DNA of 42,291 bases, taken from NCBI GenBank assembly GCA_024281075.1, contig JAMXLK010000068.1, positions 1 to 42,291 of the forward strand. Reading direction: 5' to 3'. The notes beneath the pieces are model-generated. The model was not told the origin of the DNA and searched no databases. It saw nothing but the letters and a program-made list of their open reading frames with translations. This stretch comes from Vulcanimicrobiia bacterium (GTDB lineage Bacteria > Vulcanimicrobiota > Vulcanimicrobiia > Vulcanimicrobiales > Vulcanimicrobiaceae). Positions 15,035-42,291 of the stretch are shown piece after piece (position 1 is the first letter of the stretch; every line of letters starts with the position of its first letter). The translations under genes were made by a program, and so were the position numbers.

Positions 15035-15060
15035 CCCGGGCGGAGTCGAGGGGCTCAGGG
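15007..15060. repeat. Dispersed repeat copy 3, inverted pair at lgt/yggS junction
   Basis: On the minus strand CCCTGAGCCCCTCGACTCCG is followed by GTCGAAGGGAGCGAGGG, two repeat halves facing each other, able to form an imperfect hairpin of about 15 pairs with a 20-base loop. The first half contains the lgt stop (CCC-TGA, same phase as in tpiA); the loop contains the yggS ATG; the second half encodes VEGSEG of YggS. Confidence 0.7.
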
Positions 15061-15921
15061 TAAACTGCGGGCCGGCTGGGGCGAGACGGGTCCGACCTCG
15101 GTCCGCGGTCCCGGCCGCGTCGCGCAGTAGACGATGCCGATTATGCCGGCGAGGATCATCGGGATCGCATAGAGCTGTCCGCCGGTCAAGCCCATCCAAC
15201 TGAACGCGGTCTGCCGCCACATCTCGGCGATCGTCCGGGTGATGCCGTAGAGCGTGAACCACGTCCACGCAACGACGCCGTCCTTCGGCTTGAGGCGGTA
15301 GACGATGAGCAGAATCGGCAGCGTCAAGATGTCGAGAATCGCTTCGTAGAGCTGTGACGGATGACGATACGCTGGGACACCGTTGACCGGCGGCGCGGTC
15401 GGAAAAATCAAACACCACGGCCGATCCGGAGTGCAGACGTCGCCCCAAAGCTCGTCGTTGATGAAGTTGACGAGGCGGACGAGGGTAATGCCGACGGGCA
15501 GCATCATGACCACTTCGTCGCCGACGACCGTGTACTTGAGTCCGGGGTGCTTACGAATGAAGAGCCAGATGGCGACGAGCACGCCGATCAAACCGCCGTG
15601 GAACGCCATGCCGCCGTTCCAAACGGCCACGAAATTGATCGGATTGGAGAAATAAAAAGACGCGTCGTGCATGCTGATCATGTCGTTGATGACGAAGAAC
15701 GTCCGTCCGCCGACGAGCACGCCGACCAGCGCATAAAATAGGAAATCCTGGATCTGCTCGCGCGTCAGCCCGAGCCGACGGCGTCCGGCCGGACGGCTCA
15801 TCCAAAGGTAGACGCAGACGAACGCAACGAGGTACGCGATGCCGTACCAATGGATGCCGAAACGCCCGAAGTGGATTGCGACCGGGTCGATATTTGTCGG
15901 ATATGTAAACCAGTGCTGCAT
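15055..15921 (-). CDS. lgt: Prolipoprotein diacylglyceryl transferase
   Basis: Transfers diacylglycerol from phosphatidylglycerol to the lipobox Cys of prelipoproteins, in the inner membrane. The 288 residues hold seven hydrophobic segments with the family marks GIHWYGIAYLVAF, the essential His in MAFHGGLIGVLVA, the signature RLVNFINDELWGDV, and RHPSQLYEAI. The ATG at 15921 gives the typical N-terminus. The gene heads the yggS-sepF-divIVA-leuB series and is divergent from ccdA; its last codons and stop come from the dispersed repeat. Its presence fits the many lipoproteins in this window and lspA 0.8 kb away. Confidence 0.96.
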   Translation of the reverse strand: MQHWFTYPTNIDPVAIHFGRFGIHWYGIAYLVAFVCVYLWMSRPAGRRRLGLTREQIQDFLFYALVGVLVGGRTFFVINDMISMHDASFYFSNPINFVAVWNGGMAFHGGLIGVLVAIWLFIRKHPGLKYTVVGDEVVMMLPVGITLVRLVNFINDELWGDVCTPDRPWCLIFPTAPPVNGVPAYRHPSQLYEAILDILTLPILLIVYRLKPKDGVVAWTWFTLYGITRTIAEMWRQTAFSWMGLTGGQLYAIPMILAGIIGIVYCATRPGPRTEVGPVSPQPARSLP

Positions 15922-21917: not shown

Positions 21918-22997
21918 TCACAGAAGTTCTCCGAGCACGTCGAAGTTGCGCTCTGCCGCCATCTCGAGAGCGTGACGGCGCGTCATGAGGTGTCCGGCGA
22001 GCGCATCGCGGTCGCGCACGAGCCGGTCGGCGAGGTCGTCGATCGCGTCGTCGGTGGGTCGCTTCCCGTCGTCGTAGAGCGGCGCGAGCGGATATGCGAG
22101 ATCTTGGCAGAGTGCCGAGACTTTCGGATCGTACGCAATGGCCAAGAACGGTATGCCGTAGCGTGCCGCGAGAATGAGCGAGTGCAGCCGCATGCCGACC
22201 ACGACGCGCGCACCGCGAAGCATCGACGCCGCTACTTGCAGCGTGCACTCCGGCAAGAGCACGGGGTTGGACTTGCAGAGACGAATGACGTCGGTGGATG
22301 CCGCCGCATCGGCGGCTCCGCCGAGCGGCAAGAATGCGACGCGAATCTCGTGGCGCAACGCGAGGCGATCGACGATGCGCGCAACAACGGATGGTGCGTC
22401 GCGCAATCCCGCAGCCTTCCGAACGCTCACGACGGCATACGGGCCGCTCTCGGGCCCGAGCCCTTCACCTGAAAGATCGACGGACTCTTGCGCACCGTCG
22501 TACAGAAAGACCGGATCGGCGGTTCGTTCCACCGGAGTCGATGGAAGCAGCTCGTGCAGCAGCCGCTGCGAACGCTCGTCGCGAACCGTCGCGCGGTCGA
22601 GTCCCTTGCAAAACTGCCGGACGATGAGCCTCCCCCAAAAATCGAGTGGACCGATCGACTGCGCGAACAGCATCGTCTTGCGGCGGCGGCGAATCGCCTC
22701 ACGCAGAATTCCGGCATAATAGAGCAGACTACGCGTGCTCGTTGCGTTCTGGAGGAGCCCACCACCGCCCGAGACGACGACGTCGCTGCGCGCGATCGCG
22801 GCCCGCACCTCACGCCAGTCCCACCGCGGCGCGGTCTCGACCCGGTGCTGTGACGCGGTGAGCTGCGGCGACGCAGAAAGCACTTCGAGGCGTGCCGCCG
22901 GAAAACGCGCGCGCATTCGCTGGAGGATGACCTCCAGCAACGCCTCGTCGCCGAGATTTCCGAAACCGTAGTAGCCGGAGAGCAGCACGCGCGGCAT
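21918..22997 (-). CDS. csaB: CsaB-type polysaccharide pyruvyl transferase
   Basis: A 359-residue PF04230 enzyme. In Bacillus and Thermus CsaB adds pyruvyl ketals to secondary cell-wall polysaccharide, creating the anchor for SLH-domain surface proteins. Seen: the N-terminal LLSGYYGFGNLGDEALLEVIL, SDVVVSGGGGLLQNATSTRS, FAQSIGPL, and the C-terminal VVGMRLHSLILAARYGIPFLAIAYDPK. The ATG at 22997 shares its A with the TGA of the DUF5693 gene (TGATG). The ORF is open far upstream, but that lies inside DUF5693 in another frame. The pairing with DUF5693 recurs in Firmicutes and suggests an envelope polymer in this organism too. Confidence 0.9.
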   Translation of the reverse strand: MPRVLLSGYYGFGNLGDEALLEVILQRMRARFPAARLEVLSASPQLTASQHRVETAPRWDWREVRAAIARSDVVVSGGGGLLQNATSTRSLLYYAGILREAIRRRRKTMLFAQSIGPLDFWGRLIVRQFCKGLDRATVRDERSQRLLHELLPSTPVERTADPVFLYDGAQESVDLSGEGLGPESGPYAVVSVRKAAGLRDAPSVVARIVDRLALRHEIRVAFLPLGGAADAAASTDVIRLCKSNPVLLPECTLQVAASMLRGARVVVGMRLHSLILAARYGIPFLAIAYDPKVSALCQDLAYPLAPLYDDGKRPTDDAIDDLADRLVRDRDALAGHLMTRRHALEMAAERNFDVLGELL

Positions 22998-25033
22998 CAC
23001 GCCTTGGCGAGCGGAAGCCGGCGGTAGACCCACATGACGATCGCGCCGACGATCGCGCCGATCACCAGACCGTTGACGATGCGCAAAATCGAGATCTCGA
23101 TCGGCGTGTGCAGATGCGAAAACGTGTCGATCACGTCGCCGACGCCGACGCCGATGCCGAGCGCCAGCAGCCAGCCGATGACGCGCCGATGCGGCGGCAG
23201 CAACGCCGGCAGCAGCATCATGCACGGGAACCCGATGAGAAACTCTTTGAACCGCGGCCGCACGCTGAGCACGTGCGTCAAGATATGGCGCAGTGCAAGC
23301 TCGAAGGCCGACGGCGCGACATCGCTTTCGTTTCCGCTTCGAACCAGCATCAGGGCCCCCAGTGCGACGATGGCAATACCCGCAAAGAGCTGATAGGCAA
23401 GCACCGGCGAGAGAAAGACGTCGCGCGGCTGCGCCGACGCAGCGCCAAAACGGCGATCGAACGTGTAAAGCAGCAGCGCGACGAGCGGCGGCAGCGCCAA
23501 GATCAGCCGCACGCCGCGAAATCGCTCGATCTCCGTCATTGCCAGCGGCGAGCTCATGACCCCGACGACCACGAGCGCGCCGAGCGAGGCAACACCGGTC
23601 GCCGCGAGCATCCAGCCGGCGCTGCGCGCGAACTGCGTTCCGAAGCTCCGCGACGGCATCTCGTTCCACGCGGGAATGAGGACCAGCAAAGCCGCGGTTG
23701 CGAAAAGCAGCGCGCCTGCCAGCGCAATCGCCGAGCGCGCCGCCGCGTCGTGGTGTACGGCGACGCCGGCAACGTAGAGAAGGACGGTCAACGCGTACGC
23801 TGCAGCCGCGATTCGGCGGCCATACCAGCCGAAGAAATCGAGTAAGAGAATGAAAATCGAAGGGACCGCAAGCGCGGCCAGACCCACCAACACGCGGTTG
23901 TTGCCATGGTACTGCGGAATCGGCGTCGCGCGCCCTAGACGAAAACCGCCGGAGCGCAGCTCGTCGGCAACGGCTTTCACCATCTCGACGTTGGTCGCCT
24001 CAACCGAAAGATTCCCGTCTTGATGAGTCCACGGACGAAGATAGACGACGCGTACGTTGCGTTCGCGAACGCCCAGCACGTACCGGCCCACCGCGTCGTC
24101 CAGCTTGATCTTGTCGAGCTCCGTCTTCGCAATCGCCTGCACGCGAACGGTTCTTCCCGGCAGAAGGCGCGCAAGCGTGTCGTTTCCCTTCTGCACCTGC
24201 GCCGCATCGTACGTTTCGATCGAGCCGAAGTTGACGAAGGGATGAAGTTTAAAAGCGTTGGCAGTATCTTCCAGGTGGTCGGGATAACCCAATACCTGAT
24301 TGCCGAGACCGAAGAAGATCACCGTCGACACCTTAGGATCGTAGCGAAGGACGTCGGCGAAGTATGCGTCGATCTGCGCCGGGCCGAGTCGTTCGTCGTT
24401 CTGAAAGCGCGGGACGACGAGCAGGCCCAAGCGGTGCGCGAGCTCGATTTGATCGGTCGGTATGCCGAGCGCGGTTGCATTAAAATAGTCGATCTGCGTC
24501 CGGACTTCGATCAGCCAGGGGCGTACCGGGCGTAAGACGCGCACGCTGCGCGGTGAGAAGTGCAGCGGCAGCACCGTCCGGTATCGCCGGTACGTCGCCG
24601 CGTCGGAGACCAGCAGATAGACCGCGCCTTCGACGATGCGATGCGTGCGCACGAGCTGCGCTAAGAGCGGATCGGCGATCGGCGTAACGCGGGCCGCATT
24701 GACCAGGGCGGCGCCGGTTGTCGCAAAGGCCTTTCCGTCGGCGCCGACGTTCGCTCCGAGCTCTTCGGTAACCGCAAGCGACGTTAGACCCGCACGCCGC
24801 AGCGCGACGAGCAACGCTGCAGGGTTGTAGTCGTACGATCGCGCTACCGCATCCAAATCGCTGAAATCCATCGCCAGTTCGACGCGGTTTGCGCGCGCTT
24901 CGACCCGTACGCGGAAGAAGGCGACCGCGAGCGATGCAAGCAGACCCAGAATTAAGATCGCTTGCGCGTAACGCGTTTGCGGAGTGAGGAAAAGCACGAA
25001 GCGGCTCATTCCCGTTTCGCTCCGAGTGTCCAT
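22997..25033 (-). CDS. DUF5693 family membrane protein
   Basis: A 678-residue protein with one N-terminal membrane span (YAQAILILGLLASLAVAFF), an extracytoplasmic domain of about 370 residues with YNPAALLVALRRAGLTSLAVTEELGA, and a C-terminal half of about eight hydrophobic segments. This layout and the location directly before csaB match DUF5693 proteins of Firmicutes and relatives; function is unknown but it is plausibly part of surface-polymer pyruvylation or export. ATG 25033 is the longest start; ATG 25009 is an alternative that would leave a leader after the hairpin at 25050-25072. It heads the operon with csaB and ileS. Confidence 0.85.
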   Translation of the reverse strand: MDTRSETGMSRFVLFLTPQTRYAQAILILGLLASLAVAFFRVRVEARANRVELAMDFSDLDAVARSYDYNPAALLVALRRAGLTSLAVTEELGANVGADGKAFATTGAALVNAARVTPIADPLLAQLVRTHRIVEGAVYLLVSDAATYRRYRTVLPLHFSPRSVRVLRPVRPWLIEVRTQIDYFNATALGIPTDQIELAHRLGLLVVPRFQNDERLGPAQIDAYFADVLRYDPKVSTVIFFGLGNQVLGYPDHLEDTANAFKLHPFVNFGSIETYDAAQVQKGNDTLARLLPGRTVRVQAIAKTELDKIKLDDAVGRYVLGVRERNVRVVYLRPWTHQDGNLSVEATNVEMVKAVADELRSGGFRLGRATPIPQYHGNNRVLVGLAALAVPSIFILLLDFFGWYGRRIAAAAYALTVLLYVAGVAVHHDAAARSAIALAGALLFATAALLVLIPAWNEMPSRSFGTQFARSAGWMLAATGVASLGALVVVGVMSSPLAMTEIERFRGVRLILALPPLVALLLYTFDRRFGAASAQPRDVFLSPVLAYQLFAGIAIVALGALMLVRSGNESDVAPSAFELALRHILTHVLSVRPRFKEFLIGFPCMMLLPALLPPHRRVIGWLLALGIGVGVGDVIDTFSHLHTPIEISILRIVNGLVIGAIVGAIVMWVYRRLPLAKA

Positions 25034-27990: not shown

Positions 27991-28947
27991 TTAGAGTCTA
28001 CGGCCCGCCGCGGCGCGGCGCAGACGGTCCATCATCGCACGCCCCAGCCCATGCTCGGGCATCGGCTGCACGTCGATGCGTTCGAGCGCGAGCCCGTCGA
28101 GTTCGTGCAAGATTTCAAAGAACCGAGCAGCCGCTTCCCGTAGATCTCCGGCCGGCGAAAGCCGCCGGGAAACCGCGTATCCATCGAACTCCTCGCGCAA
28201 CGCAAGCACCGCCGCGCTGCCGCGCTCGTACGCCGGAACCGACGCCGGCTCAACGAGCCGGACCGCCGTTGCGGGGGCGTAATGCTGCGGCAGCATACCC
28301 GGCGCGCGGGAATCGGCCGCGGCCGGCAGATCGAGCGGCCCCACGACGGCCTCAATGGCTTCGGCTTCGATGGCGCCGGGGCGCAATAGCTCGCAGCGGC
28401 TCCCGATTGCGACGATCGTGGACTCGAGTCCGTGCTCGGCACGGCCGCCGTCCAGAATCAGATCCACCTCGTCGCCGAGGCCGGCCGCGACGTGGTGCGC
28501 CCGAGTCGGACTCAAGCTTCCGAACGGATTGGCACTCGGTGCGGCCAGTGGCGCACCCGCAGCCTCGAGCAATGCGCGCGCGACCGGATGCGACGGCATG
28601 CGAACGGCCACCGTTGAAAGGCCGGCCGTCACCAAATCCGGCACCTCGGGACGCTTGGGAAGCACCAGCGTCAGCGGTCCGGGCCAGAAACGTTCGCCGA
28701 GCGCTTTGGCCGCGTGCGGCATCGACGCAACGACGCGAGATAACATCGCGTCGTTGAGGACGTGAACGATAAGCGGATCGAACTGAGGCCGCCGCTTGAC
28801 TTCGAAGATTCGGGCGACCGCCGCCGGCGTGAAGGCGAGCGCTCCCAAGCCGTAGACCGTTTCAGTCGGAAATGCGACGACGCCGCCACGCTGCAGCACG
28901 CGGGCCGCACGCGCGATGCTGCGAGAATCCGCCGCCAAAACGAGCAC
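27991..28947 (-). CDS. tsaC: L-threonylcarbamoyladenylate synthase (TsaC/Sua5)
   Basis: Makes threonylcarbamoyl-AMP from threonine, bicarbonate and ATP for the t6A37 modification of ANN-decoding tRNAs. The 318 residues include the YrdC domain (1-about 200) with GGVVAFPTETVYGLG, FEVKRRPQFDPLIVHV, APSANPFGSLSPT and ILDGGRAEHGLESTIV, then a Sua5 extension with the conserved linker RAPGMLPQHYAPATAVRLV. The Sua5 form is longer than TsaC. GTG at 28947 fits the N-terminus; the lipoprotein gene on the other strand starts 43 bases away. Confidence 0.93.
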   Translation of the reverse strand: MLVLAADSRSIARAARVLQRGGVVAFPTETVYGLGALAFTPAAVARIFEVKRRPQFDPLIVHVLNDAMLSRVVASMPHAAKALGERFWPGPLTLVLPKRPEVPDLVTAGLSTVAVRMPSHPVARALLEAAGAPLAAPSANPFGSLSPTRAHHVAAGLGDEVDLILDGGRAEHGLESTIVAIGSRCELLRPGAIEAEAIEAVVGPLDLPAAADSRAPGMLPQHYAPATAVRLVEPASVPAYERGSAAVLALREEFDGYAVSRRLSPAGDLREAAARFFEILHELDGLALERIDVQPMPEHGLGRAMMDRLRRAAAGRRL

Positions 28948-28990: not shown

Positions 28991-30358
28991 ATGCCGGGTC
29001 AGCATCGTTGGTTGCGGCTTTTGCCGCTTGGCGCTTTTATTTTGGCTGCGACACTCCCCGGAGCTTTGAGCGGCTGCGGCGGCGGCTCGAGTTCGGGATC
29101 GGTCGTCCCGCCGCTGCCGCCTCCGCCACCCGCGACGAAGGGCAAGTACTTCACGCACATCGTCATCCTGATGCAGGAGAACCGCACCTTCGACAATTTG
29201 TTCGCGACCTTCCCCGGCGCGGACGGCACGCGCCGCGGAAAGACGCACAACGGGAAAACCCTTCTGTTACGCAAGGCCGATCTGGAGAGCCGAATCTCAC
29301 CGAACAACGGCTACTCGTTTTGGAAGCGCGACTACAACGGCGGCAAGATGAACGGGTTCGATACCGTCAACATCGGTAAGGTCAGTGGAACGTACGTTTA
29401 CGAGTACGTCGATCCCGCGCAGATCGCGCCGTATTGGGATCTCGCGAAATCGTACGTACTCTCGGATCATACGTTCCAAACTCAGGGCAGCGGCAGCTTC
29501 ACCGCGCATCAAGATTTAATTCGCGGTGGAACCAACGTCAACGCAAACCAGAGCCTCATCGACTTTCCCAACGACTGGGGGCATCCGTGGGGCTGCGATG
29601 CGCCGCCCGGCACGCGAACGTCGCTGATTACTGCTCACAATCAGTATATGTCGTTTCAAGGTCCGTTTCCGTGCCTGCAGTACGCGACGCTGCGCGATTT
29701 ACTCGACGCGAAAGGCATATCGTGGCGTTACTACACGCCGGCGCAAGGCAGCTTCGCAGGGAATCTCTGGAACGGATTCGCCGCCATCGATGCGGTGCGC
29801 CACGGCTCGGAATGGGGCACGAACGTCGCGTCGCCCGAAACGGGCATCTTTACCGATATCAGCCGCGACACGCTGCCGGCGGTCGCGTGGGTCGTTCCGG
29901 ATTATCCCAACTCCGATCATCCCGGCAACAATTCCGATACGGGGCCTTCGTGGGTCGCGCAGATCGTCAATGCCGTCGGTCAAAGTCCGGCGTGGAACAC
30001 GACCGTAATCCTCGTCGTGTGGGACGATTGGGGAGGATGGTACGATCACGTCGCGCCCCCGGGAACGCGACGATATGGCGGCCTCGGATTTCGAGTTCCG
30101 TTGCTCGCGGTCGCACCGTACGCGAAGAGCGGATATGTTTCGCACGCCGTTTACCAATTAGGCAGCATCGTTCGCTTCGTCGAGGACAACTGGAGTTTGG
30201 GACGTCTCGGCACGACGGACGCGCACTCGGGTGATTTCGCCCGCGATTTCTTCGATTTCAGCCAAAACCCGCGCAAGTTCGTGCCGATCGAAAGCAAGTA
30301 CTCACGCTCGCAATTGTTGAGCAGGCCGCCGTCGAATCATCCGGTAGACGACGAATAA
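28991..30358 (+). CDS. PF04185 phosphoesterase lipoprotein, copy 1
   Basis: A 455-residue lipoprotein (ATG 28991; signal with lipobox LSGC, Cys about 29, then a Gly/Ser/Pro linker) of the phospholipase C/AcpA-type phosphoesterase family, which hydrolyses phosphate esters outside the cytoplasm. Motifs: MQENRTFDNLF (metal-binding Glu-Asn-Arg), SDHTFQTQGSGSFTAHQDLIRGG with the likely nucleophile Ser, NSDHPGNNSDTGPSWV, and VVWDDWGGWYDHVAPP. It resembles copies 2 and 3, the other + strand copies, more than 4-8. It stands 100 bases before the polyketide synthase gene and may belong to the same unit. The substrate (phospholipid, phosphomonoester or other) is not predictable. Confidence 0.88.
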   Translation: MPGQHRWLRLLPLGAFILAATLPGALSGCGGGSSSGSVVPPLPPPPPATKGKYFTHIVILMQENRTFDNLFATFPGADGTRRGKTHNGKTLLLRKADLESRISPNNGYSFWKRDYNGGKMNGFDTVNIGKVSGTYVYEYVDPAQIAPYWDLAKSYVLSDHTFQTQGSGSFTAHQDLIRGGTNVNANQSLIDFPNDWGHPWGCDAPPGTRTSLITAHNQYMSFQGPFPCLQYATLRDLLDAKGISWRYYTPAQGSFAGNLWNGFAAIDAVRHGSEWGTNVASPETGIFTDISRDTLPAVAWVVPDYPNSDHPGNNSDTGPSWVAQIVNAVGQSPAWNTTVILVVWDDWGGWYDHVAPPGTRRYGGLGFRVPLLAVAPYAKSGYVSHAVYQLGSIVRFVEDNWSLGRLGTTDAHSGDFARDFFDFSQNPRKFVPIESKYSRSQLLSRPPSNHPVDDE

Positions 30359-30458: not shown

Positions 30459-31706
30459 ATGCGCATTTTAGAGACATCCCTTGGAACGATCGTCGCCGAG
30501 CCGCGGGTCATGGCAGTTCCGGTCGTCTTATCCGATTTCGAGATCGTGGACGTTACTGCGCCGGTTGCGCAAGACGAGCTCAAGCCGATTCAGGCACATT
30601 TCATGACCATCGCGCAATGCGCGGCGCAAGGAATTACCGATCCGTCCGACCGCCAACGCGTCGCGCAGACGCTGCAGGATCGCATGGCGCGATACGGCAC
30701 GTCGTCGGAGTACATCGCTCGGCGCCAGGTGAGCGTGTTGAGCTCGTGCTTCGTCAAGCACGACCCACAGAACGAAAGCGAAACGATTCGACGTTTCGGC
30801 AATCTTCGCAATCCTACCGGAGAGACGCTCGACGAGCGCATGAATCTTTTCGAAGAGATCGCCTGCGGCGTTTTCGAACGCGTCTATCCCGACGATACGA
30901 CTGCTCCGCCGGACGACATCGTCCACGTAAGCTGCTCCGGATACGTTTCGCCGAGCCCGGTTCAAACGTTCCTATCCCGGCGCGGCTGGCTCAACGTCGG
31001 CGTCACGCACTCCTACCATATGGGGTGCTACGGAGCATTCCCGGCGATTCGCACGGCGTCCGGTCTCGTCGGCTCTTCTTACGTTTCGCTGCCGACGCGC
31101 AAGCGCCGCGTCGATCTCGTGCATACCGAGTTTCTGTCGCTCCACTTCGATCTGCTCGGCGACGAACCGGATAACTTCGTTACGTCGACGCTCTTTGCCG
31201 ACGGCTTCATCAAGTACTCCGCCTCACCATTACCGGAGTTCACGAAGCGCCACGTCAACGGTTTGAAGATTCTGGCGATCGACGAGCACATATTGCCCGA
31301 CTCGCTTCCGGAGATGACCCTGCGCCCCGGACCGCTGCAGTTCGACATGTCGCTCTCGAAGCGGGTGCCGTTTATGATCCGTGACTCGATCGCCGATTTC
31401 GTTCGGTCCATCTGCGGCCACGTCGGTCTCGATTTCGAGCGCGAGAAGGCGGCGATGATTTTTGCAATCCATCCCGGCGGCCCGGCGATTCTGAATCAGA
31501 TTCGCGGGCGACTCGGGATCGAGGAGTCCGCCGTGGCCATGAGCCGCCAAGTCCTCTACGAACACGGGAACATGGCTTCGGCGACCGCGCCTCACATCTG
31601 GAAGTTGATCGTGGAATCACCCGAGATCCCCGCCGGCTCGAAAATTTTGAGCATGGCGTTCGGACCGGGGCTGACAGTTATCGGCGCACTCTTCGAGAAA
31701 GTATAA
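30459..31706 (+). CDS. Type III polyketide synthase (chalcone/stilbene synthase family)
   Basis: A 415-residue condensing enzyme that elongates an acyl-CoA starter with malonyl-CoA to alkylpyrones, alkylresorcinols or similar. The Cys-His-Asn triad is visible: nucleophile Cys in SYHMGCYGAFPAIRTA, His in FAIHPGGPAILNQI, and Asn in LYEHGNMASATAPHIW. The C-terminus has MAFGPGLTVIGALFEK, the chalcone-synthase signature. The start is uncertain: ATG 30459 is used here, ATG 30510 begins exactly at the family-like AVPVVLSDFEI. The sulfotransferase gene follows after 7 bases and phosphoesterase copies flank the pair, suggesting a small surface-lipid biosynthesis operon. Starter and product are unknown. 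Confidence 0.9.
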   Translation: MRILETSLGTIVAEPRVMAVPVVLSDFEIVDVTAPVAQDELKPIQAHFMTIAQCAAQGITDPSDRQRVAQTLQDRMARYGTSSEYIARRQVSVLSSCFVKHDPQNESETIRRFGNLRNPTGETLDERMNLFEEIACGVFERVYPDDTTAPPDDIVHVSCSGYVSPSPVQTFLSRRGWLNVGVTHSYHMGCYGAFPAIRTASGLVGSSYVSLPTRKRRVDLVHTEFLSLHFDLLGDEPDNFVTSTLFADGFIKYSASPLPEFTKRHVNGLKILAIDEHILPDSLPEMTLRPGPLQFDMSLSKRVPFMIRDSIADFVRSICGHVGLDFEREKAAMIFAIHPGGPAILNQIRGRLGIEESAVAMSRQVLYEHGNMASATAPHIWKLIVESPEIPAGSKILSMAFGPGLTVIGALFEKV

Positions 31707-31713
31707 CGCCCGT

Positions 31714-32895
31714 ATGGCCAACAGCGACGCTAAGACACCGCAGAAATTCTCCGTGCCGGCGCCCTTCTATTGGAGCGTGCGGGGCGTTCACGCCGCCGCG
31801 CCGCTCTTCGTCGGCCTCGGCAATCTCGAATCGCGCATGCTGGCGCGCCGCTTGGCCGCGGAGCATGTCGACCGGCCGGTCTACATCTGCGGGCTGCCGC
31901 GCGCAGGAACGACGATCACGCTGCAAATGCTCAGCGAACACCCCGACGTCGTCACCCACAAGTACGCCGACTTCTTGATGCCGTACATGCCGTGGGTTTG
32001 GAACAAAGTTTTTCCGCGCATTCCGGTAGATGCAATGAAGAAGCCGGTTCCGCGCATCCATCGCGACCGCATTCAGATCACCCGCGACAGCGCGGAAATG
32101 GGCGAAGAAATCTTGTGGGAGCACTTCTTCCCACACATTCACGAGGAAAAAAACTATAGCGTCCTCGACGGATCGACGGCAAACCCGGCCTTCGAGCGAT
32201 TTTATCGCGAGCATCTCTGCAAGCTGGCGCTCGTGAGGGAACGGTCGCGATACGTCAGCAAGGCGATCATGTGCGTCGTACGGATGCAATACTTGCGCAA
32301 GCTCTTTCCCGACGCGCGTTTCCTGCTCTACGTTCGCAACCCGATCGATCACGTCGCCTCGATCATCAAGCAGGACCGCATTTGGGCCGAGATCGAGCGC
32401 GACGATCCGCGTCAGATCGAAATCATCGAGCTGACCGGCCACCACGAGTTCGGTCCGAACCAGGTGATGGCCAACGTCGGTCGGCCCGAAGAACTGCGGG
32501 CGATCAGGCAGCTCTTCAACGACGGCCGCTGGGCGGAGTCGCGCGCACGCTACTGGGCATACGTCTACGGCTTCGTCGTCAACCAGCTCGACGACGATCC
32601 GGAGCTCGCGCGCCGAGTCTGCATCGTTCGCTACGAAGACCTGTGTGCCGACTCTGCCGTAACCATCGACCGCATCCTGGCGCACACCGAGCTCGATCCC
32701 GCGAAGTTCACGGCGTCTCGCGCTGCCTACAGCGAAAAACTCTCGTTTCCGGATTATTACAAGCCGGCGTTCGAGCCGGACGTGCTCTCCGCGATCGTGG
32801 CTTCGACCGATGCCGTGGCGAAGCGTTTCGATTACGACGTCGCGGCCATCGCGCAGCGCGTCGGCGCGACGTCACCCGCACCAACCGCCCCCTAA
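31714..32895 (+). CDS. Sulfotransferase family protein
   Basis: A 393-residue PAPS-dependent sulfotransferase. The 5'-phosphosulfate-binding loop is YICGLPRAGTTITLQMLSEHP (about residues 57-77, shortened pattern GLPRAGTT) and the 3'-phosphate-binding segment is LLYVRNPIDHVASIIKQ (about 206-222), with the Arg and Ser in place. It belongs to the Sulfotransfer_3-like bacterial group rather than the eukaryotic cytosolic type. It sits 7 bases after the polyketide synthase and 21 before phosphoesterase copy 2. The natural inference is that it sulfates the hydroxyl of the polyketide product; a carbohydrate or lipid acceptor is also possible. Confidence 0.88.
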   Translation: MANSDAKTPQKFSVPAPFYWSVRGVHAAAPLFVGLGNLESRMLARRLAAEHVDRPVYICGLPRAGTTITLQMLSEHPDVVTHKYADFLMPYMPWVWNKVFPRIPVDAMKKPVPRIHRDRIQITRDSAEMGEEILWEHFFPHIHEEKNYSVLDGSTANPAFERFYREHLCKLALVRERSRYVSKAIMCVVRMQYLRKLFPDARFLLYVRNPIDHVASIIKQDRIWAEIERDDPRQIEIIELTGHHEFGPNQVMANVGRPEELRAIRQLFNDGRWAESRARYWAYVYGFVVNQLDDDPELARRVCIVRYEDLCADSAVTIDRILAHTELDPAKFTASRAAYSEKLSFPDYYKPAFEPDVLSAIVASTDAVAKRFDYDVAAIAQRVGATSPAPTAP

Positions 32896-32916
32896 CGTTC
32901 CCCGAGGAGGAGTATC

Positions 32917-34386
32917 GTGAGCGTTCGTGGCCTCGCTTTTGGTTTTTGCGCCGTGGTTGCGACGAGCCTCGGTATCACCGCATGCAACGCCGGATCCAGC
33001 GCGCCTAGCGTCGTTCCGCCTCAATCCGATCATCGCCGCCACGGGTCGGGGACCGGCTCGATCCAGCACGTCGTCTTGATGATTCAAGAGAACCGCACGT
33101 TCAACAACTTGTTCGCCGGCTTTCCGGGCGCGACGAGCTCGAAGACCGGGGTCGAGCTCACGCCGAATCCCAGCGGGAGCGGTTACATACAGAAAAAAAT
33201 CAAGTTGAAGAAAGTGCCGCTTACGGATCATGGGAACGTCACGCATCTGTACAAAGCGTTCTTGGTCGGCTGGGATAATGGCGCGATGGACTCGTTCAAT
33301 CTCATTAAATACGTGGTCAACGGAAAGCCTGAAGGCAAAGCACCGTACCAATACGTGAATCCAAAGACGATCGTCCCCTATTGGGCGATTGCCGAGCAAT
33401 GGGGTCTCGCCGACGAGATGTTTCAGTCACAGGGCAGCGACAGTTTTACCGCTCATCAAGAACTGATCCGCGGCGGCACCTGCATCTCGACTCAGTATAC
33501 GTGCGAAAATCCCTCGTCGTATACGATTAGTCTGATCGACCCGCCGACGACGAGCGCCGCATGGGGCTGCGATTCAAACCAAGGCGCAAAGACCACGATT
33601 ATCAACGGCGATCTTCAAGTCACGCCGTCCGGCGGGCCCTTTCCGTGTTCGAACGACTTTCCGGATTACGGATCCGGCGGCTATGCAACCTTGCGCGATC
33701 TGCTCGACAAAAAATCCGTGTCCTGGAAGTATTACACGCCGAAATGGAAGCCGAACACGCCGAGCGCGCTGTGGAATGCGTTCGACATGATCGCGCCCGT
33801 CCGATACGGACCAGAGTGGACCGACGGCCACATCTCCTCTCCGGAATCGAATATCTTTACCGATATCCAAAACGGCGCGCTGCCGGCGATGTCGTGGGTA
33901 ATCCCGAAAGCGGCGAACTCCGATCATCCGGGCTACAGCATGAAGGATACCGGCCCTGCGTGGGTCGCAAGCGTCGTCAACGCGATCGGCCAGAGCCAGT
34001 ACTGGAACTCGACGGCGGTGATCGTCGTCTGGGACGACTGGGGCGGTTTCTACGATCCCGTTGCGCCTCCGCTGCCGCGCGACGATCAAGGCGGCCCAGG
34101 CTTTCGCGTCCCGATGCTCGTTATCTCGCCCTACGTGATCAAGGGTAACGGCAGCCAAGGCGGGTACGTCTCGCACACGGTCTACGAGTTCGGCAGCATC
34201 GTGCGTTTCATCGAAGATACGTTCAATCTCGGACGGCTCGGAACCACGGATCAGAGCAGTACCAGCATGGGCGACATGTTTAACCTCAATCAATCGCCGC
34301 GTCCGTTTCAAACCATCCCGTCGAACTACAAGCGCGAGTACTTCCTGCATCAAAAACCGTCAAACGTGCCGGTCGATACGGATTAG
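32917..34386 (+). CDS. PF04185 phosphoesterase lipoprotein, copy 2
   Basis: A 489-residue lipoprotein. The GTG at 32917 has a strong GAGGAGGAG site just upstream; the signal ends in lipobox ITAC. It has IQENRTFNNLF, QSQGSDSFTAHQELIRGG, NSDHPGYSMKDTGPAWV and [14 protein letters not shown]. The His of the YDHV motif is replaced by Pro, so catalysis or substrate may differ from copy 1. An insert with CISTQYTCENPSS and later Cys residues suggests a disulfide. It is third in the PKS-sulfotransferase-copy 2-copy 3 operon, with 10 bases to copy 3. Confidence 0.87.
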   Translation: MSVRGLAFGFCAVVATSLGITACNAGSSAPSVVPPQSDHRRHGSGTGSIQHVVLMIQENRTFNNLFAGFPGATSSKTGVELTPNPSGSGYIQKKIKLKKVPLTDHGNVTHLYKAFLVGWDNGAMDSFNLIKYVVNGKPEGKAPYQYVNPKTIVPYWAIAEQWGLADEMFQSQGSDSFTAHQELIRGGTCISTQYTCENPSSYTISLIDPPTTSAAWGCDSNQGAKTTIINGDLQVTPSGGPFPCSNDFPDYGSGGYATLRDLLDKKSVSWKYYTPKWKPNTPSALWNAFDMIAPVRYGPEWTDGHISSPESNIFTDIQNGALPAMSWVIPKAANSDHPGYSMKDTGPAWVASVVNAIGQSQYWNSTAVIVVWDDWGGFYDPVAPPLPRDDQGGPGFRVPMLVISPYVIKGNGSQGGYVSHTVYEFGSIVRFIEDTFNLGRLGTTDQSSTSMGDMFNLNQSPRPFQTIPSNYKREYFLHQKPSNVPVDTD

Positions 34387-34396
34387 CGAACGCCGC

Positions 34397-35881
34397 ATGC
34401 GCTCGCGCAAGTGGGCGATTGCGTTTGCGCTTTTGGCGGCGGGCTGCACCGCGTCCATTCGACTCGGCCCTCCAGCCCTTCGACTCGGCGCTGCGCCCCT
34501 CGCTCAGGATCAGGATGACACGTCGATGCCTCCTGCATCGACGAGAGCATCGGCGACGAGTCCCATCAAGCACGTCGTCATCGTCGTTCAAGAGAACCGC
34601 AGCTTCGACGACTTCTTTGCGCGCTTTCCCGGAGCCGATGGCGCAACGCGCGGCAAAATGAAAGTCAAGCAGGGAAGCCGGTACGTCGACAAGTGGGTGA
34701 CGCTTAAAGCGCACGCCCTCCTGATGAAGGGAGACGTCGCGCACTGCCACTCGTCGTTCGAAACTGCCTACGACCACGGCAAGATGGACGGGTTCAATCT
34801 CGTTCCCGTTGGAACGTGCCACAAAGGTGGAACGCCGGCGGGCACCAGCGTCTACCAATACGTGCAAGAGAGCGACATCGCGCCGTACTGGGATATCGCG
34901 CAGCAATGGGTACTGGCCGATCACCTCTTTCAGACGCAAGGCAGTGGAAGCTTCACAGCCCATCAGGATCTCATTCGCGGCGGCACCGGCATCAGCGCGA
35001 CGAAGAGTCTCATCGACTCACCCGACGGATGGCCGTGGGGCTGCGATGCGCCGCACTGGGCGGTGACGTGGACCATCACCAAAGACGGCCGCGTCGGCGA
35101 GAACGGTCCTTTCCCGTGCTCGAACGCTTTTCCCGACTACGGTTCCGGCGGCTATGCGACGTTGCGGGATCTGCTCGACGCGGCGAACGTCTCGTGGAAG
35201 TATTATACGCCCTGTTTCAGCAAGGATGACGGCTGCACGCCCGGCAGTCGTTGCCCGAACTGCGACGGCGATCTCTTGAACGCATTCGACGTCATCTATC
35301 CCGTTCGTTACGGCAGCGAATGGAAAACGAACGTGACGATGCCGCAAACGAAGATTCTCTCCGACGTCAAAAACGGCCGGCTGCCCGCCGTCTCGTGGGT
35401 CATTCCGGGCGACAACGAATCCGACCATCCTGCGGAAACCATCGACAACGGTCCCTCCTGGGTGGCCTCGATCGTCAACACGATCGGCGAAAGCAAATAC
35501 TGGAACGCGAGTGCGGTGATCATCCTTTGGGACGATTGGGGCGGTTTCTACGACAACGCCGTACCGCCGTTTCAAGACCGCCAAGGCGGCCTTGGTTTTC
35601 GCGTGCCGGCGCTCGTCGTATCGCCGTATGCGATCGTTGGCAATTCAAGTCAAGGCGGCTACGTTTCGCATACGAAATACGAGTTCGGCAGCGTCCTGCG
35701 TTTCGTCGAAGAGAACTGGAGTCTCGGCTCGCTGGGAACGACCGACCGCCGCGCCGCGAGCATAGGCGACGTCTTCGATTTCAGCCAGAAGCCGCGCAAA
35801 TTCAAACCGATCGGTTCGCGATACTCGGCGAGGTACTTCGAACGCGAAGCGGCGCGCCCACAGCACGGCGATCCGGAATAG
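34397..35881 (+). CDS. PF04185 phosphoesterase lipoprotein, copy 3
   Basis: A 494-residue lipoprotein (signal MRSRKWAIAFALLAAGC, lipobox AAGC). The linker after the Cys is coded by a dispersed-repeat copy: a 21-bp tandem duplication gives the heptads IRLGPPA and LRLGAAP, then a LAQDQDD tail. The catalytic domain shows [44 protein letters not shown] and [14 protein letters not shown], where Asn-Ala replaces the usual His-Val. A Cys-rich insert (CTPGSRCPNCDGD) is unique to this copy. Last gene of the PKS operon; its stop lies 3 bases from the stop of copy 4, running the other way. Confidence 0.87.
   Translation: MRSRKWAIAFALLAAGCTASIRLGPPALRLGAAPLAQDQDDTSMPPASTRASATSPIKHVVIVVQENRSFDDFFARFPGADGATRGKMKVKQGSRYVDKWVTLKAHALLMKGDVAHCHSSFETAYDHGKMDGFNLVPVGTCHKGGTPAGTSVYQYVQESDIAPYWDIAQQWVLADHLFQTQGSGSFTAHQDLIRGGTGISATKSLIDSPDGWPWGCDAPHWAVTWTITKDGRVGENGPFPCSNAFPDYGSGGYATLRDLLDAANVSWKYYTPCFSKDDGCTPGSRCPNCDGDLLNAFDVIYPVRYGSEWKTNVTMPQTKILSDVKNGRLPAVSWVIPGDNESDHPAETIDNGPSWVASIVNTIGESKYWNASAVIILWDDWGGFYDNAVPPFQDRQGGLGFRVPALVVSPYAIVGNSSQGGYVSHTKYEFGSVLRFVEENWSLGSLGTTDRRAASIGDVFDFSQKPRKFKPIGSRYSARYFEREAARPQHGDPE
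34458..34520. repeat. Dispersed repeat copy 4, inside phosphoesterase copy 3
   Basis: Contains CCCTTCGACTCGGCGCTGCG then CCCCTCGCTCAGGATCAGGATGACA, the longer form of the repeat, preceded by a partial duplicate TTCGACTCGGC (34458 and 34479, 21-bp step). It is translated as the linker after the lipobox. The CAGGAT hexamer is also doubled. Confidence 0.7.
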
Positions 35882-35884
35882 AAT

Positions 35885-37234
35885 TTACTGCGGATCGGGG
35901 ATCCGCGGGTCGTCGGGCTGCGCGAGAAAGAATGCTCCGTCGTGGGGCGCTTTAATCGGCACGAACCGGCGGGGCTTCTGCGAAAAATCGAAAGAGTCAG
36001 CGGCGGGAGAAGCCGCCCGCCGATCGGCACCCGCGAGCTGAGGAAGCCCGAAGAGATCTTCGGCAAAGCGCAGCACGCTCGCGCTTTCGTACTCAACGTG
36101 CGAAACATAGTTCTTCTTTGCATACGCTGAGATCACGATGAGGGGTACGCGAAACCCGTTTCCGTCGAAGTCTTTGTACGGCGGCGGGACCGGATCGTAG
36201 AAGCCGCCCCAATCATCCCATTGCACGAAGATGACCGTTGAATCCCAAAACTTGCTCTCGCCCACGGCATTGACGATCGAGGCAACCCACGACGGCCCTA
36301 AGCCTCCACCGCACAGCGGATGATCGGACTCCAGGCATTGCGGAGTTATCCACGTGAAGCTACCCAGCTTACCGGCCGCAACGTCGGATAAAAACGTCTT
36401 CTGCGGCGTGATGACGTCGTTTTTCCAATCGGGCCCGTAAAAGATGTGCCGGATGGCTTGGTATCCGGACCAGTAACCGCCGAGCGGCTTTTTATAACGG
36501 CTCGTGTAGAAGCGCCATGGTAACCCGGCTTCGTCGAGCTCGTCTCCAAGCGTTTGTTCGTCGAAGCACGGCCGCTGCCACGTCCCGAGCGCGCGCCGAT
36601 GGGTCAGGCGCTGAACTTGAACGGCTAGTCCGCCGCCGCAGCCCCAAATAAAGCCCGGAACGTTGACACTATCTTCGGCCTGCGCGGCAATCGCATACTG
36701 ATGGGCGACGAAGCTTTCGTCCAGCTGGGACGCGAACATACGATCGGCGAGCACCCATTGGTGCGCCATATCCCAATACGGCTTCGACTCCGAGTGTGGA
36801 ATGTACGCATACTGACCGTTTTTCGGACCGTTGAATAGGTTCTCGAGGTTGAAGCCGTCCATTTTGCAATCGGTGCCGGGAAGTTTTCCCGTACCGTCGC
36901 ACGCGGCGAACATGCCGAGCGCCGAGTGGTCGATCTCATACTGCGTCTTCAACGATATGGGCTGCAGAGCGATCGTGTTCCCGTACGAATCTTTGCCCTG
37001 CGACGCCGTCTTCGCACCCGGGTATCCTTTGAAGACGTCGTTGAAGCTGCGGTTTTCTTGGATCACGTAGACGACGTGCTTAATCTTGACCATCCCCTCG
37101 ATCGGTGCGGCGTTCCCAACCTGTGTCATCCTGAGCGGAGCGACCGCAGGGAGCGCAGTCGAAGGACGAATGGGCGAGGAGGAGCATCCCGACAAGAGGC
37201 AGAGCGCCGCAAGGAGCGTGAGCGATCTATTCAT
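35885..37234 (-). CDS. PF04185 phosphoesterase lipoprotein, copy 4
   Basis: A 449-residue lipoprotein; the ATG at 37234 lies inside the last codons of copy 5 (8-base overlap). Signal [17 protein letters not shown], lipobox LSGC. The following linker [19 protein letters not shown] is the translation of a dispersed-repeat copy. Core motifs: [32 protein letters not shown] (Ser in the SFxAHQ motif), [30 protein letters not shown] (His replaced by Pro) and a C-terminus ending RIPDPQ. It is most like copy 8, not its neighbour copy 5, which points to past recombination in the array. Last gene of the five-gene minus-strand operon. Confidence 0.87.
37124..37168. repeat. Dispersed repeat copy 5, inside phosphoesterase copy 4
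   Basis: TGTCATCCTGAGCGGAGCGA then CCGCAGGGAGCGCAGTCGAAGGACG on the plus strand. It is the same element as copy 4 in the same place in the protein (just after the lipobox linker) but on the opposite strand of the chromosome and translated in another frame, so the two insertions are independent events. Confidence 0.75.
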
Positions 37235-38576
37235 AGTCGGGTGCAAAGTAGTTCGCGCTGCGGTCGCGCATGAAAAATCGCGGCGGATGCGGAGCGCCGA
37301 TCTTGACGAACGCGCGAGGCTTCTGCGCAAAGTCGAAGCAGTCGGCCGCCGGGGACGCCGCGCGCCGGTCGGCTGCCGCAAGCGGACTCAATCCCCAAAG
37401 ATTCTCGGCGAAGCGCAACACGCTCGCCGTCTCGTACTGCACGTGCGAGACGTAGTCGCGCTTGGCGTACGGCGAGATTACCAGCAGCGGCACGCGAAAT
37501 CCCAAGCCGTCGTAGTCGGCGTAGGGCGGTGCGACGTGATCGTAGAGACCGCCCCAATCGTCCCATTGCACGAAAATCGCCGTCGAATCCCAAAACTTGC
37601 TTTCTCCGATCGTATTGACGAGCGCCGCAACCCACGACGGCCCGTAGCCGCCGCCGCAATCCACATGATCCGAATCGTCGCAGACCGGCGTGATCCAGGT
37701 GAAGTTCGCAAGCTTGCCGCGCCGAACGTCGGTAATGAATTTCCAATTCGGCGATACGACGTTGCGCTTCCAGTCGGGGCCTTCGTAAATATGTTTGATC
37801 GCTTGATAACCCGACCATTCCGATCCGGAGCCGGCCGAGCCGTACGCGCCGGCATAAAAGCGCCATGACAGGTTCGCGGTATCGAGTTCGTCGCCGAGCG
37901 TTTGGTAGTCGAAGCAAGGCATTTCCTTGGGCCCGTACGGTTTACGTTGCGAGGTCATCGTATAGACGTAATCGCCGGCCCCTCCGCTGCAGCCCCAGTT
38001 GAGATTGGGGAGGTCTGCGCTCGACGCCGCTTGCGCCGCGATGACGTACTGATGCGCCGTGAAGCTCTCGTCGAGCTGCGACTGAAACATCTTGTCGGCG
38101 AGCACCCATTGGTGTGCCATCTCGAAGTACGGTTTTGATTCGTCGTGCGGCACGTAGACGTACATCGGATTCTTGAGATGCTTGACGCGGAAGTACGACT
38201 CTTCGTCGAAGCCGTCCATTCGGCAATGCGTGCCCGGCAGCTTTCCGGTGCCGTTGCAGTCGGCGAACATTGCCTGAGCCGAATGATCGAGAACGTATCG
38301 GCGCGCCAGCGAGACCGGAACGAGCGGGATCGATTTGCCCTTCGAGTTTTTGCCGCTCGAGACGGTGTCGGCGCCGGGATAGCCTTGAAACAGGTTATCG
38401 AAGCTGCGGTTCTCCTGCACGATGTAGATCACGTGCGTAATCTTTCCCGCGCCGGTCTCGCGCAGGGACCGAAGCTCCGATGCGGCGCGCACGGACGGCA
38501 TCGGTGTTGTGCCTGCCGAACATGCCGCCGCAACCAGAAGCATCGCGCCGGCCGCGAGGCGAGTCCACTCACTCAT
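37227..38576 (-). CDS. PF04185 phosphoesterase lipoprotein, copy 5
   Basis: A 449-residue lipoprotein (signal [19 protein letters not shown], lipobox AAAC). It has [36 protein letters not shown] with two Cys, [38 protein letters not shown] and [14 protein letters not shown], with the full YDHV motif. It ends APDYE, and the codons for DYE and stop contain the ATG of copy 4. It groups with copies 6 and 7. It starts inside the end of copy 6 by the same 8-base overlap. Confidence 0.88.
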
Positions 38577-39915
38577 AGTCGGGCGCTTGATACTCTTCGT
38601 AGTGGTGCATGAAAAATCGCGGCGGATGCGGAGCCGAGATCTTTACGAACGCACGCGGCTTCTGCTGGAAGTCGAAGCAGTCGGCGGCCGGAGAGGCGGC
38701 GCGCCCGTCGGCGTCGGCCATCCGGTCGAGACCGAAGAGATCTTCGGCGAAGCGCAGCACGCTCGCCGTTTCGTACTGCACGTGCGAGACGTAGTTGCGC
38801 TTTGCATAGGGAGAGATCATCAGCAGCGGCACGCGGAATCCGAGACCGTCGTACCCTTGGTGCGGCGGGGGCACGTGGTCGTAAAGGCCACCCCAATCAT
38901 CCCACATCACGAAGATCGCACTGGAATCCCAAAACTTGCTCTTGCCGACCGTGTTGACCAGCGCGGCAATCCAAGACGGCCCCAAACCTCCGTTAAGGCA
39001 AGCGACGTGATCCGAATCCTCGCAGACCGGCGTGATCCACGTAAAGTTCGCGAGCTTGCCGCTGCGAACGTCGGTGATGAATTTCCAATTCGGCGAAATG
39101 ACGTTCTGCCAACCGCGGCCGTAGCGGATATGCTTGACCGCGAGAAAGCTGGACCACTCGGCGCCTTCGCCGCTCGATCGGCTGCCGTAGCTGCTCGCGT
39201 AGAATCGCCATGACAAGTGTGCGGCATCGAGCTCGTCGGCGAGCGTCGTATAATCGAAACAGGGCGAAAATTTTCGACCGGTGATGTGCCGGTCCGGAGT
39301 AATCCGCGCGATCTTATTGGCTTTGCCGCCGCCGCAGCCCCACTCACCGGTCGGGAGATTCACCGTCTGCGCCGCCTGTGCCGCGATGACGTACTGATGG
39401 GCGGTGAAGCTCTCGTCGAGCTGGGACTGAAACGTTCGATCGGAGAGCACCCATTCGTGGGCGATATCGAAGTATGGCTTCGATTCCGAATGCGGGACGT
39501 AGACGTATGCGGGATTCGGTGGTCCGAGGAAGGATTGTTCCTTGTCGAATCCATCCATACGGCAATCCGTGCCGCGCAGCCGGCGCGTTCCATTGCATGC
39601 CGCGAACATTGCCTGCGCCGAGTGGTCGAGAATATATTGCGTCGAGAGGCTCACCGGCTTCAGCTCGATCGTTTGGCCCTTTGAGTTTTTGCCGCTTGAC
39701 GCGGTGTCGGCCTCCGGATAACCGTGGAACAAGTTATCGAAGCTGCGATTCTCCTGCACGATGAAGATGACGTGCTCGATCTTGCCGGCGCCGGTTTCGT
39801 TGAGTGCTTGCATGGCGAGATCGCTGCGCATGTAAGGCAGCGCGTTAGGCCCGCGGGTTGCGGAGCAGGCGCACAGCGCAAGCACGGTCAGCGTTGCGGC
39901 AAACGCTCTATTCAT
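38569..39915 (-). CDS. PF04185 phosphoesterase lipoprotein, copy 6
   Basis: A 448-residue lipoprotein (signal [17 protein letters not shown], lipobox LCAC; the ORF is open further upstream but that runs inside copy 7). Motifs: [87 protein letters not shown]. It ends APDYE with the copy 5 ATG inside. The body is almost collinear with copies 5 and 7 over the whole length, the mark of tandem duplication. Confidence 0.88.
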
Positions 39916-41245
39916 AATCCGGTGCGAAGTAGTCGGCGCCGCGATTGTGCATGAAAAAACTCGGCGGCAGCGGAGCGTCGATTTTGACGAATGGACGCGG
40001 CTTATCCGAGAAATCGAAGGAGTCGGCTGCCGGCGAGGCCGCCCGGCGGTCCGCCGCCGCGAGTTGGTGCAGCCCGAAGAGGTCTTCGGCAAAGCGCAGC
40101 ACGCTCGCCGTTTCATACCGTACGTGCGAGACGTAATCGCGTTTGGCGTACGGCGAGATCACCAACAACGGAACGCGGAAACCCAGTCCGTCGCGATCGG
40201 CGTACGGCGGCGGCACGTGATCGTAGAGACCGCCCCAGTCGTCCCACTGCACGAAGATCGCGGTGGAATCCCAAAACTTACTCTTTCCGACCGTGTTGAT
40301 CAGCGCGGCGACCCACGACGGTCCGTATCCGCCGCCGCAGTTGACGTGATCGGAGTCGTCGCAGACCGGCGTGATCCAGGTGAAGTTCGCCAGCTTTCCG
40401 TCGCGGACGTCGGTGATGAACTTCCAGTTCGGCGAGACGACGTACTTCCAATCGGCTCGTTTGTAAATGTGCTTGATGGCACGAAACGCCGACCACGCGG
40501 TTCCGCCGCCGCTCGACGCACTTCCGTAGGTGCTCGCGTAAAACCGCCACGACAGATGGGCGGCGTCGAGTTCGTCGGCGAGCGTTTCGTAGTCGTAGCA
40601 TGGTTGGATGTTTGGCCCGCGCTTGCGCTCTTTCGTGATGGTGGGAACCGTATTCTGTCTCCCGCCGCCGCACCCCCAGAGAAAATTCGGCAGATTAACG
40701 CTCCATGCCGCCTGTGCGGCGATCGCGTATTGGTGCGCGACGAAGCTCTCGTCGAGCTGCGACTGGAACATTCTGTCGGCGAGCACCCACTCGTGCGCCA
40801 TGTCGAAGTACGGCTTCGATTCGCGGTGCGGAACGTAGACGTATTGCCCGTTTTGCGGCGCGCTCCACATGCTCTCCAGATTGAAGCCGTTCATCCGGCA
40901 ATCGGTTCCTGGAAGCTTCCCGGTGCCGTTGCACGCGGCGAACATCGCACGGTCGGAGTGATCGATCGTGTATTTCTGCTCGAGACCGACGGGCTGGAGG
41001 GCAATGGTTTGGCCTTTGGAGTTCTTCCCGCTCGAGACCGTATCGGCGCCGGGATAGCCCGCAAATAAATTGTCGAAGCTGCGATTCTCTTGAATGATGT
41101 AGACGACGTGGGAGATTTTACCGGCGCCAGTCAATTCGAGCGCGTGGAGGGCAAGCGGACTCCGCATATACGGCACCGCGCCGCCCTGGCCGATCGCACA
41201 ACCGCCGAGCGCGAGCACCGCGCCGAACACAGCGAGCGTTTTCAT
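39908..41245 (-). CDS. PF04185 phosphoesterase lipoprotein, copy 7
   Basis: A 445-residue lipoprotein (signal [16 protein letters not shown], lipobox LGGC). Motifs: [88 protein letters not shown]. It ends APDYE and overlaps copy 6 by 8 bases. The ATG at 41245 makes an ATGA overlap (4 bases) with the stop of copy 8. A longer ORF exists upstream but lies inside copy 8 in another frame. Confidence 0.88.
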
Positions 41246-42291
41246 TCTGCGTCGGGAATCCGCGGGTCTTCGGCCTGATTGCGGAAGAACGCGCCGTCTT
41301 GCGGCGACCCAATCGGCACGAACCGGCGCGGCTTCTGCGAAAAGTCGAGGCAATCGCGTGCCGGCGATGCGGCCCGCCGATCCGCGTTGGCGAGGCTGGG
41401 CAGGCCGAAGAGGTCTTCCGCAAATCGCAGCACACTTGCGGTCTCGTACTGCGTATGAGAGACGTAATTCTTCTTTGCATAGGCCGAGATGACGATCAGC
41501 GGCACGCGAAAGCCGTTCCCATCGTAATCTTTGAAGGGCGGCGGCACGGGATCGTACAGGCCGCCCCAATCGTCCCACTGTACGAAGATAACCGTTGAAT
41601 CCCAGAACTTACTCTCCCCAATCGCGTTCACGATCGACGCCACCCATGACGGCCCAAATCCGCCGCCGCATGCCGGGTGATCCGAATTCGCGCAGAGCGG
41701 CGTAATCCACGTGAAGCTCGCGAGTTTTCCCGCGCCAACGTCCGTGAGAAATTTTTTCTGGGGCGTGATGACGTCGTTCTTCCAGTCCGGACCGCTGAAG
41801 ATATGGCGGATGGCTTGGTATCCCGACCAAAATCCGCCGAGCGGCTTCAGATACGAGCTGGTGTAGAAACGCCACGGCAATCCCGCATCGTCGAGCTCGT
41901 CACCGAGCGTTTGATAATCGAAGCACGGGAGCTGAAAGGTGCCGAGCGACCGTTGCTGGGTTATTCGCCGAACCTGGTCCGAGCGGCCGCCGCCGCAGCC
42001 CCAATAGTAGCTGGGCACGTTGACGCTCGCGTGCGCTTGCGCCGCGATAACGTATTGATGCGCGACGAAGCTTTCGTCGAGTTGTGAAGCAAACATTTCG
42101 TCGGCCAAAACCCATTGGTGCGCCATGTCCCAGTACGGTTTGGACTCGGAATGCGGCACGTACGCATACTGACCGTGGTGCGGTCCGCCATACTGGCCTT
42201 CGAGATTGAAGCCGTTCATGCGGCAATCGGTTCCGGGCAGTTTACCGGTCCCATTACACGCGGCGAACATGCCGTCCGCCGAATGATCCAT
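41242..42291 (-). CDS. PF04185 phosphoesterase, copy 8 (5' end outside window)
   Basis: The C-terminal 349 residues of a further paralogue; the reading frame is open to the window edge, so the signal peptide and the ENRSF motif are not seen. Present are [68 protein letters not shown] (Pro in place of His) and the C-terminus RIPDAE. It is the sister of copy 4, sharing the [13 protein letters not shown] and [11 protein letters not shown] segments. It is the first visible gene of the minus-strand array, which may continue to the right. Confidence 0.87.

Follow-up and report, generated by a model that had tools for sequence, protein, structure and literature searches.

The question raised by this locus is whether a type III polyketide synthase (PKS), a sulfotransferase (ST) and the PF04185 phosphoesterase (PE) lipoproteins that surround them constitute one pathway or are in part only neighbours. 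The window, meaning the whole stretch of DNA that was analysed (42,291 nucleotides), is contig C68. The genome (2.47 Mb) comes from an uncultured soil bacterium, and the nearest relatives with a name are Candidatus Eremiobacterota MAGs.

On the plus strand the genes run in the order PE1, PKS, ST, PE2, PE3 (Table 1), with gaps of 7 bases from the PKS stop to the ST start, ~21 bases between ST and PE2 and ~10 bases between PE2 and PE3; because these gaps are short, PKS-ST-PE2-PE3 may be one transcript, as predicted from the sequence. The first-pass annotation had reported four genes here (PKS, ST and two PF04185 lipoproteins), and all four are present where it placed them; its two phosphoesterases, PE2 and PE3, are real, and six further PF04185 genes in the window had been overlooked. 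The tandem minus-strand PF04185 open frames overlap their neighbours by up to ~340 bases, and the true starts are probably internal ATGs preceding lipobox signal peptides. Elsewhere in the window, prolipoprotein diacylglyceryl transferase (Lgt), which is required for lipoproteins, is encoded at 15055-15921, probably by coincidence, and a DUF5693 protein adjoins a polysaccharide pyruvyl transferase (22997-25033 and 21918-23669).

Table 1. Positions and diagnostic features of the genes at the PKS-ST locus.
Feature	Position	Strand	Remarks
Sua5/YrdC threonylcarbamoyl-AMP synthase	27991..28947	-	syntenic anchor; also found in relatives lacking the PKS, there with no adjacent PE, PKS or ST
PE1, PF04185 phosphoesterase lipoprotein	28991..30358	+	~100 bases upstream of PKS
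Type III polyketide synthase, ArsB/ArsC-type (PKS)	30459..31706	+	Cys190 (codon 31026-31028), His338 (31470-31472), Asn371 (31569-31571); switch position Leu288 (31320-31322)
PAPS-dependent-type sulfotransferase (ST), PF13469	31714..32895	+	5'-PSB GLPRAGTT; 3'-PB YVRNPIDHVAS
PE2, PF04185 phosphoesterase lipoprotein, AcpA/phospholipase C superfamily	32917..34386	+	lipobox ITAC
PE3, PF04185 phosphoesterase lipoprotein	34397..35881	+	PF04185 match
Remainder of phosphoesterase array, five more PF04185 genes	35885..42291	-	PF04185 matches
PF04185 gene	35885-37381	-	
PF04185 gene	37227-38576	-	
PF04185 gene	38569-40116	-	
PF04185 gene	39908-41578	-	
PF04185 gene	41242-42291	-	cut by contig end

The PKS matches PF02797 (E 1.2e-17) and aligns over its full length with ArsC, the nearest solved structure (3vs8/3vs9, E ~1e-91), the next PDB chains scoring 1e-17 or worse; PKS18 (1ted/1tee), which we take to be the type III PKS encoded by mycobacterial rv1372, scored ~3e-13, against 1e-91 for ArsC. 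It belongs to the chalcone synthase superfamily, with the Cys-His-Asn residues of a CHS-like ketosynthase, and the complete triad claimed in the first-pass annotation was located at Cys190, His338 and Asn371, unchanged across an alignment that combines 19 rows from Eremiobacterota with 68 homologues from outside the phylum. In a tree of representative homologues, the Eremiobacterota sequences form a single clade among the Ars-type PKS, sister to PKS of Acidobacteria/Blastocatellia, with the Azotobacter/methanotroph group more distant. The sister Acidobacteria PKS genes are neighboured by a chalcone isomerase-like protein and a carboxylesterase, and searches of 68 Ars-type PKS loci from other phyla with ST and PE profiles found no similar ST or PE in flanks of up to 8 kb.

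The residue that switches ring type was mapped by mutagenesis to Trp281 in ArsB and Gly284 in ArsC (PMC6274091). The aligned position is Leu288 here and Leu in 19/19 Eremiobacterota rows, while the 68 outside homologues carry Trp (64) or Glu (4). The clade has neither the Trp of an ArsB-type alkylresorcinol synthase nor the Gly of an ArsC-type alkylpyrone synthase, and therefore the ring type cannot be called; we infer "alkylresorcinol or alkylpyrone" from the PKS family, in a clade that passes the residue test for neither.

The ST matches PF13469 (E 3.3e-22). Both signatures of PAPS-dependent sulfotransferases, the 5'-phosphosulfate loop and the 3'-phosphate Arg...Ser, are present: the loop GLPRAGTT is identical in 19/19 ST rows and the 3'-phosphate motif Y-x-RNP-x-D-x-x-AS is kept in all 19, so the earlier assignment of a PAPS sulfotransferase starting 7 bases after the PKS is borne out. 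No solved sulfotransferase is close to the protein (the best PDB match by phmmer has E 2.6e-6 and covers short stretches), and by sequence profile its nearest solved relatives are tyrosylprotein sulfotransferases, at weak scores. The predicted structure was poor (mean pLDDT 56) and was counted as weak support only; it matched sulfotransferase folds exclusively, best those of tyrosylprotein sulfotransferases (phenol sulfation). A full-length APS kinase (E 2e-62) is encoded in the same genome, and therefore PAPS can be made. Full-length APS kinases were found in 17/19 PKS-bearing genomes, the two without being incomplete.

In a search of all 149 genomes of the phylum, PKS and ST each matched 19, and these were the same 19: 15/18 in the genus of the window and 2/2 in each of two other genera. 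At every locus read the two genes are adjacent and co-directional, spaced by 3-57 bases (mostly 3-23), and what flanks the pair differs between genera, with a PhzF-like gene, an MBOAT gene or a cyclase/NB-ARC gene intervening. Conservation of the pair in relatives, a check proposed in the first-pass annotation, therefore holds. Because co-occurrence is perfect and the genes are always adjacent on one strand despite changed neighbours, the PKS and ST are a real two-gene biosynthetic module; its gene identities, intact active-site residues, obligate pairing and a PAPS-synthesis gene in the genome are established. As a separate observation, an adenylate/guanylate cyclase-NB-ARC-TPR protein is encoded in genus g34 between the pair and the gene corresponding to PE1 (L164:4451-7177; L165:11725-14439).

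By rpoB, all 19 pair-bearing genomes fall in one clade (genera g1, g13 and g34). The three genomes of the window's genus without a match to the pair are incomplete; real loss was considered for G041 and G046 and rejected, the contigs breaking inside the upstream PE beside Sua5, which makes these cases of missing data. The nearest PKS-less relatives retain the Sua5 anchor, mostly with S41, and have no PKS, ST or PE there, and because of this the PKS/ST/PE block would most simply have been gained on the branch leading to these genera. Descent within one clade also means that the adjacency of PKS and ST could be vertical inheritance, with the ST acting on an unrelated acceptor (a quinone, glycan or protein, for example) and the pairing being inherited synteny. 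The weakly scoring tyrosylprotein sulfotransferases closest to the ST, and its distance from solved enzymes in general, would allow another molecule as acceptor; yet co-occurrence is perfect and the 3-57 base spacing was kept while other neighbours were rearranged, and we consider an unrelated acceptor highly unlikely.

The preferred reading, to which we assign a probability of about 0.6, is that the PKS-ST module makes a sulfated, anionic, phosphorus-free alkylresorcinol or alkylpyrone lipid, with the PEs outside the pathway. For substrate, product, location and role we infer the following scheme: the PKS would extend a long-chain fatty acyl-CoA or acyl-ACP with three malonyl units to a tetraketide, closing to an alkylresorcinol or alkyl-alpha-pyrone; the ST would transfer SO3 from PAPS to a hydroxyl of the ring; and the resulting amphiphilic lipid, anionic and free of phosphorus, would probably go to the membrane or the cell surface. 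The suggestion of a sulfated alkylresorcinol or pyrone was made in the first-pass annotation, and the conserved pair, the Ars-branch PKS, the APS kinase and the AdpST precedent speak for it; the Leu switch leaves the ring type uncalled and, being present in all 19 genomes, is a point against the scheme in that another ring chemistry may apply. A further point against it is that the pair has no neighbouring gene for a fatty-acid synthase or acyl ligase, such as ArsA in Azotobacter.

The switch residue, being neither Trp nor Gly, also speaks for an alternative in which the sulfated polyketide would be a small diffusible product or a sulfate carrier in place of a structural lipid, as with the presulficidins, type III PKS pyrones made by Cpz6 that relay sulfate as donors in caprazamycin biosynthesis (PMC4924298). 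However, the identified genes of the window include no second sulfotransferase or antibiotic cluster, and characterised PKS of the Ars type, to which this enzyme belongs, accept mid- to long-chain starters (PMC6274091), so that a carrier or diffusible product appears quite improbable.

The PEs were considered separately from the lipid pathway. PE2 and PE3 match PF04185 at E ~1e-52, and lipobox-like signal peptides were read from their sequences. The E-N, Ser and D-D metal and nucleophile positions are conserved in 15/15 aligned PEs, which places them, with metal-binding E-N and D-D, a Ser/Thr nucleophile and a secretion signal, in the AcpA/PLC superfamily. They most resemble the AcpA acid phosphatase, more closely than phospholipase C; among the PEs scanned, the best score against TIGR03396 (phosphocholine-specific phospholipase C) was 131 bits, below the 580-bit cut-off, and that against TIGR03397 (acid_phos_Burk) was 141 bits, below the 363-bit cut-off. 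The source genome holds 60 PF04185 matches in 2.47 Mb, most on other contigs; a near-complete relative has 58 and one g13 genome 41, giving 41-60 verified matches per genome of 2.5-3.7 Mb, and most other family members have 1-23 first-look candidates. Among members of g1, g13 and g34 in the rpoB tree the count is 34-95, against 5-7 in the nearest outgroups, an enlargement of about tenfold in the pair-bearing genera. A literature search found no report of PF04185 expansion in Eremiobacterota.

Expansion was also seen in G042, G073, G107 (up to 95 first-look candidates) and G108, and further expansions occur in genera g10 (62), g17 (49) and g33 (42). A 399-aa protein whose match to S8 peptidase is borderline (L152:11909-13108) recurs in or beside PF04185 arrays, with homologues in seven loci. 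By their sequences, the flanking lipoproteins are extracytoplasmic acid-phosphatase/phospholipase C-like enzymes and part of an expansion across the genome that probably serves phosphate scavenging. As an unexplained adaptation, the expansion suggests that the use of organic phosphorus is under strong selection.

A link between the pair and extracytoplasmic phosphoesterases had been proposed in the first-pass annotation, including the removal of a protecting phosphate. To our knowledge, neither type III PKS nor PAPS sulfotransferase reactions depend on a phosphate protecting group; the proposal found no supporting evidence and was rejected, since kinases and phosphorylated intermediates play no part in this chemistry. 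In the window's genus a PE lies directly upstream of the pair in 15/15 PKS-bearing genomes and directly downstream in 14/14 assessable ones. The upstream slot, however, is filled in g34 by a subfamily different from that in g1, the g34 counterpart of the g1 PE being located on the far side at a distance of ~6 kb, and the downstream slots are likewise occupied by different subfamilies. In g13, G072 has one divergent PE and G073 has none within ~35 kb of the pair. PF04185 genes consequently do not accompany the pair in every lineage, as those of a functional operon would, and the specific link to two phosphoesterases lacks support in the form proposed, given the tenfold expansion, the differing subfamilies and g13 without a co-directional neighbour; two phosphoesterases dedicated to a PKS operon were rejected on account of the 60 copies in the genome, the slot subfamily differences and G073. 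Because subfamilies differ, g13 has no co-directional PE neighbour and g17 and g33 expanded PF04185 without PKS-ST, the co-location is probably a PE hot spot combined with single shared ancestry, although a functional tie is possible. The PEs are then neighbours, perhaps partners in a phosphorus-saving economy, and not steps of the PKS pathway.

Such an economy could take the form of a lipid swap, in which under phosphate limitation PF04185 enzymes would degrade phospholipids (own or environmental) and PKS-ST would supply a sulfated phenolic replacement, making the neighbourhood functional. The gain of PKS-ST and the expansion of PF04185 fall on one branch, PEs occupy both flanks throughout the genus where assessable, and in the relative G042, where 15 PF04185 genes form one 35 kb array that includes the pair, a random non-PE point would be flanked by PEs on both sides with a probability of ~0.005, a post-hoc figure for one event. 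By analogy, alkylresorcinols take the place of membrane phospholipids in Azotobacter encystment (PMC4824345), and PlcP-driven, phospholipase C-based lipid replacement is established in marine bacteria (PMC9457565). Phylogenetically, though, this is one event (a correlation with n=1); by rpoB, g17 and g33 expanded PF04185 independently without PKS-ST, G073 keeps the pair with no PE for ~35 kb, the flanking slots hold different subfamilies, and the PEs look nearer to an acid phosphatase than to phospholipase C. We regard the swap as unlikely. A form of it with a new ring type, in which the expanded exported PEs would strip phosphate from lipids or other esters and a sulfated phenolic lipid from the Leu-switch PKS and ST would take their place as the anionic lipid of the membrane, seems more doubtful again. 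The possible novelty of the locus lies in this phosphorus-sparing exchange.

Should the preferred reading be right and the product be a sulfated alkylresorcinol or pyrone, the range of a rare class of compounds would widen beyond Actinomycetes to take in an uncultured soil phylum, and three genera would gain a testable lipid biomarker; the Leu found at the ArsB/ArsC switch position allows a direct test of the rule by which long-chain type III PKS choose their ring.

Among known systems, ArsB/ArsC of Azotobacter vinelandii (3vs8/3vs9) are the closest characterised PKS by sequence, with a full-length alignment and the same triad; their Trp281 and Gly284 correspond to Leu288 in the present enzyme, and in arsABCD the partners are a fatty-acid synthase and a phosphopantetheinyl transferase, with no sulfotransferase among them (PMC6274091, PMC4824345). 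The PEs share the E-N, Ser and D-D positions of the AcpA/phospholipase C superfamily (2d1g, 8yk5), but no PE scanned here reaches the NCBIfam cut-off of either named subfamily. The adp cluster of Streptomyces davaonensis, in which AdpST sulfates alkylresorcinols from a clustered type III PKS (sulfatostatins, PMC12135136), is similar in the clustering of a type III PKS with a PAPS-dependent sulfotransferase and in the proposed sulfated alkylresorcinol chemistry. This actinomycete cluster has a dedicated PAPS cassette, and AdpST is reported to lie far from most bacterial sulfotransferases (PMC12135136); the present locus, compared with AdpST by description, has no PAPS cassette next to the pair, its PKS is of the Ars type and has a Leu switch, and PF04185 genes flank it. 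Cpz6, likened by description, also makes a type III PKS product that accepts sulfate from PAPS, but there the sulfate is relayed to an antibiotic within a large cluster. In the mycobacterial operon rv1371-rv1372-rv1373, likened as a PKS-sulfotransferase operon, the PKS (rv1372) adjoins the sulfotransferase (rv1373) and is accompanied by rv1371 and no phosphoesterases (PMC13141999). Type III PKS-sulfotransferase pairs are already known from adp/AdpST, Cpz6 and rv1371-3; new here are a lineage outside the Actinomycetes, an Ars-type PKS, a Leu switch and the phosphoesterase setting.
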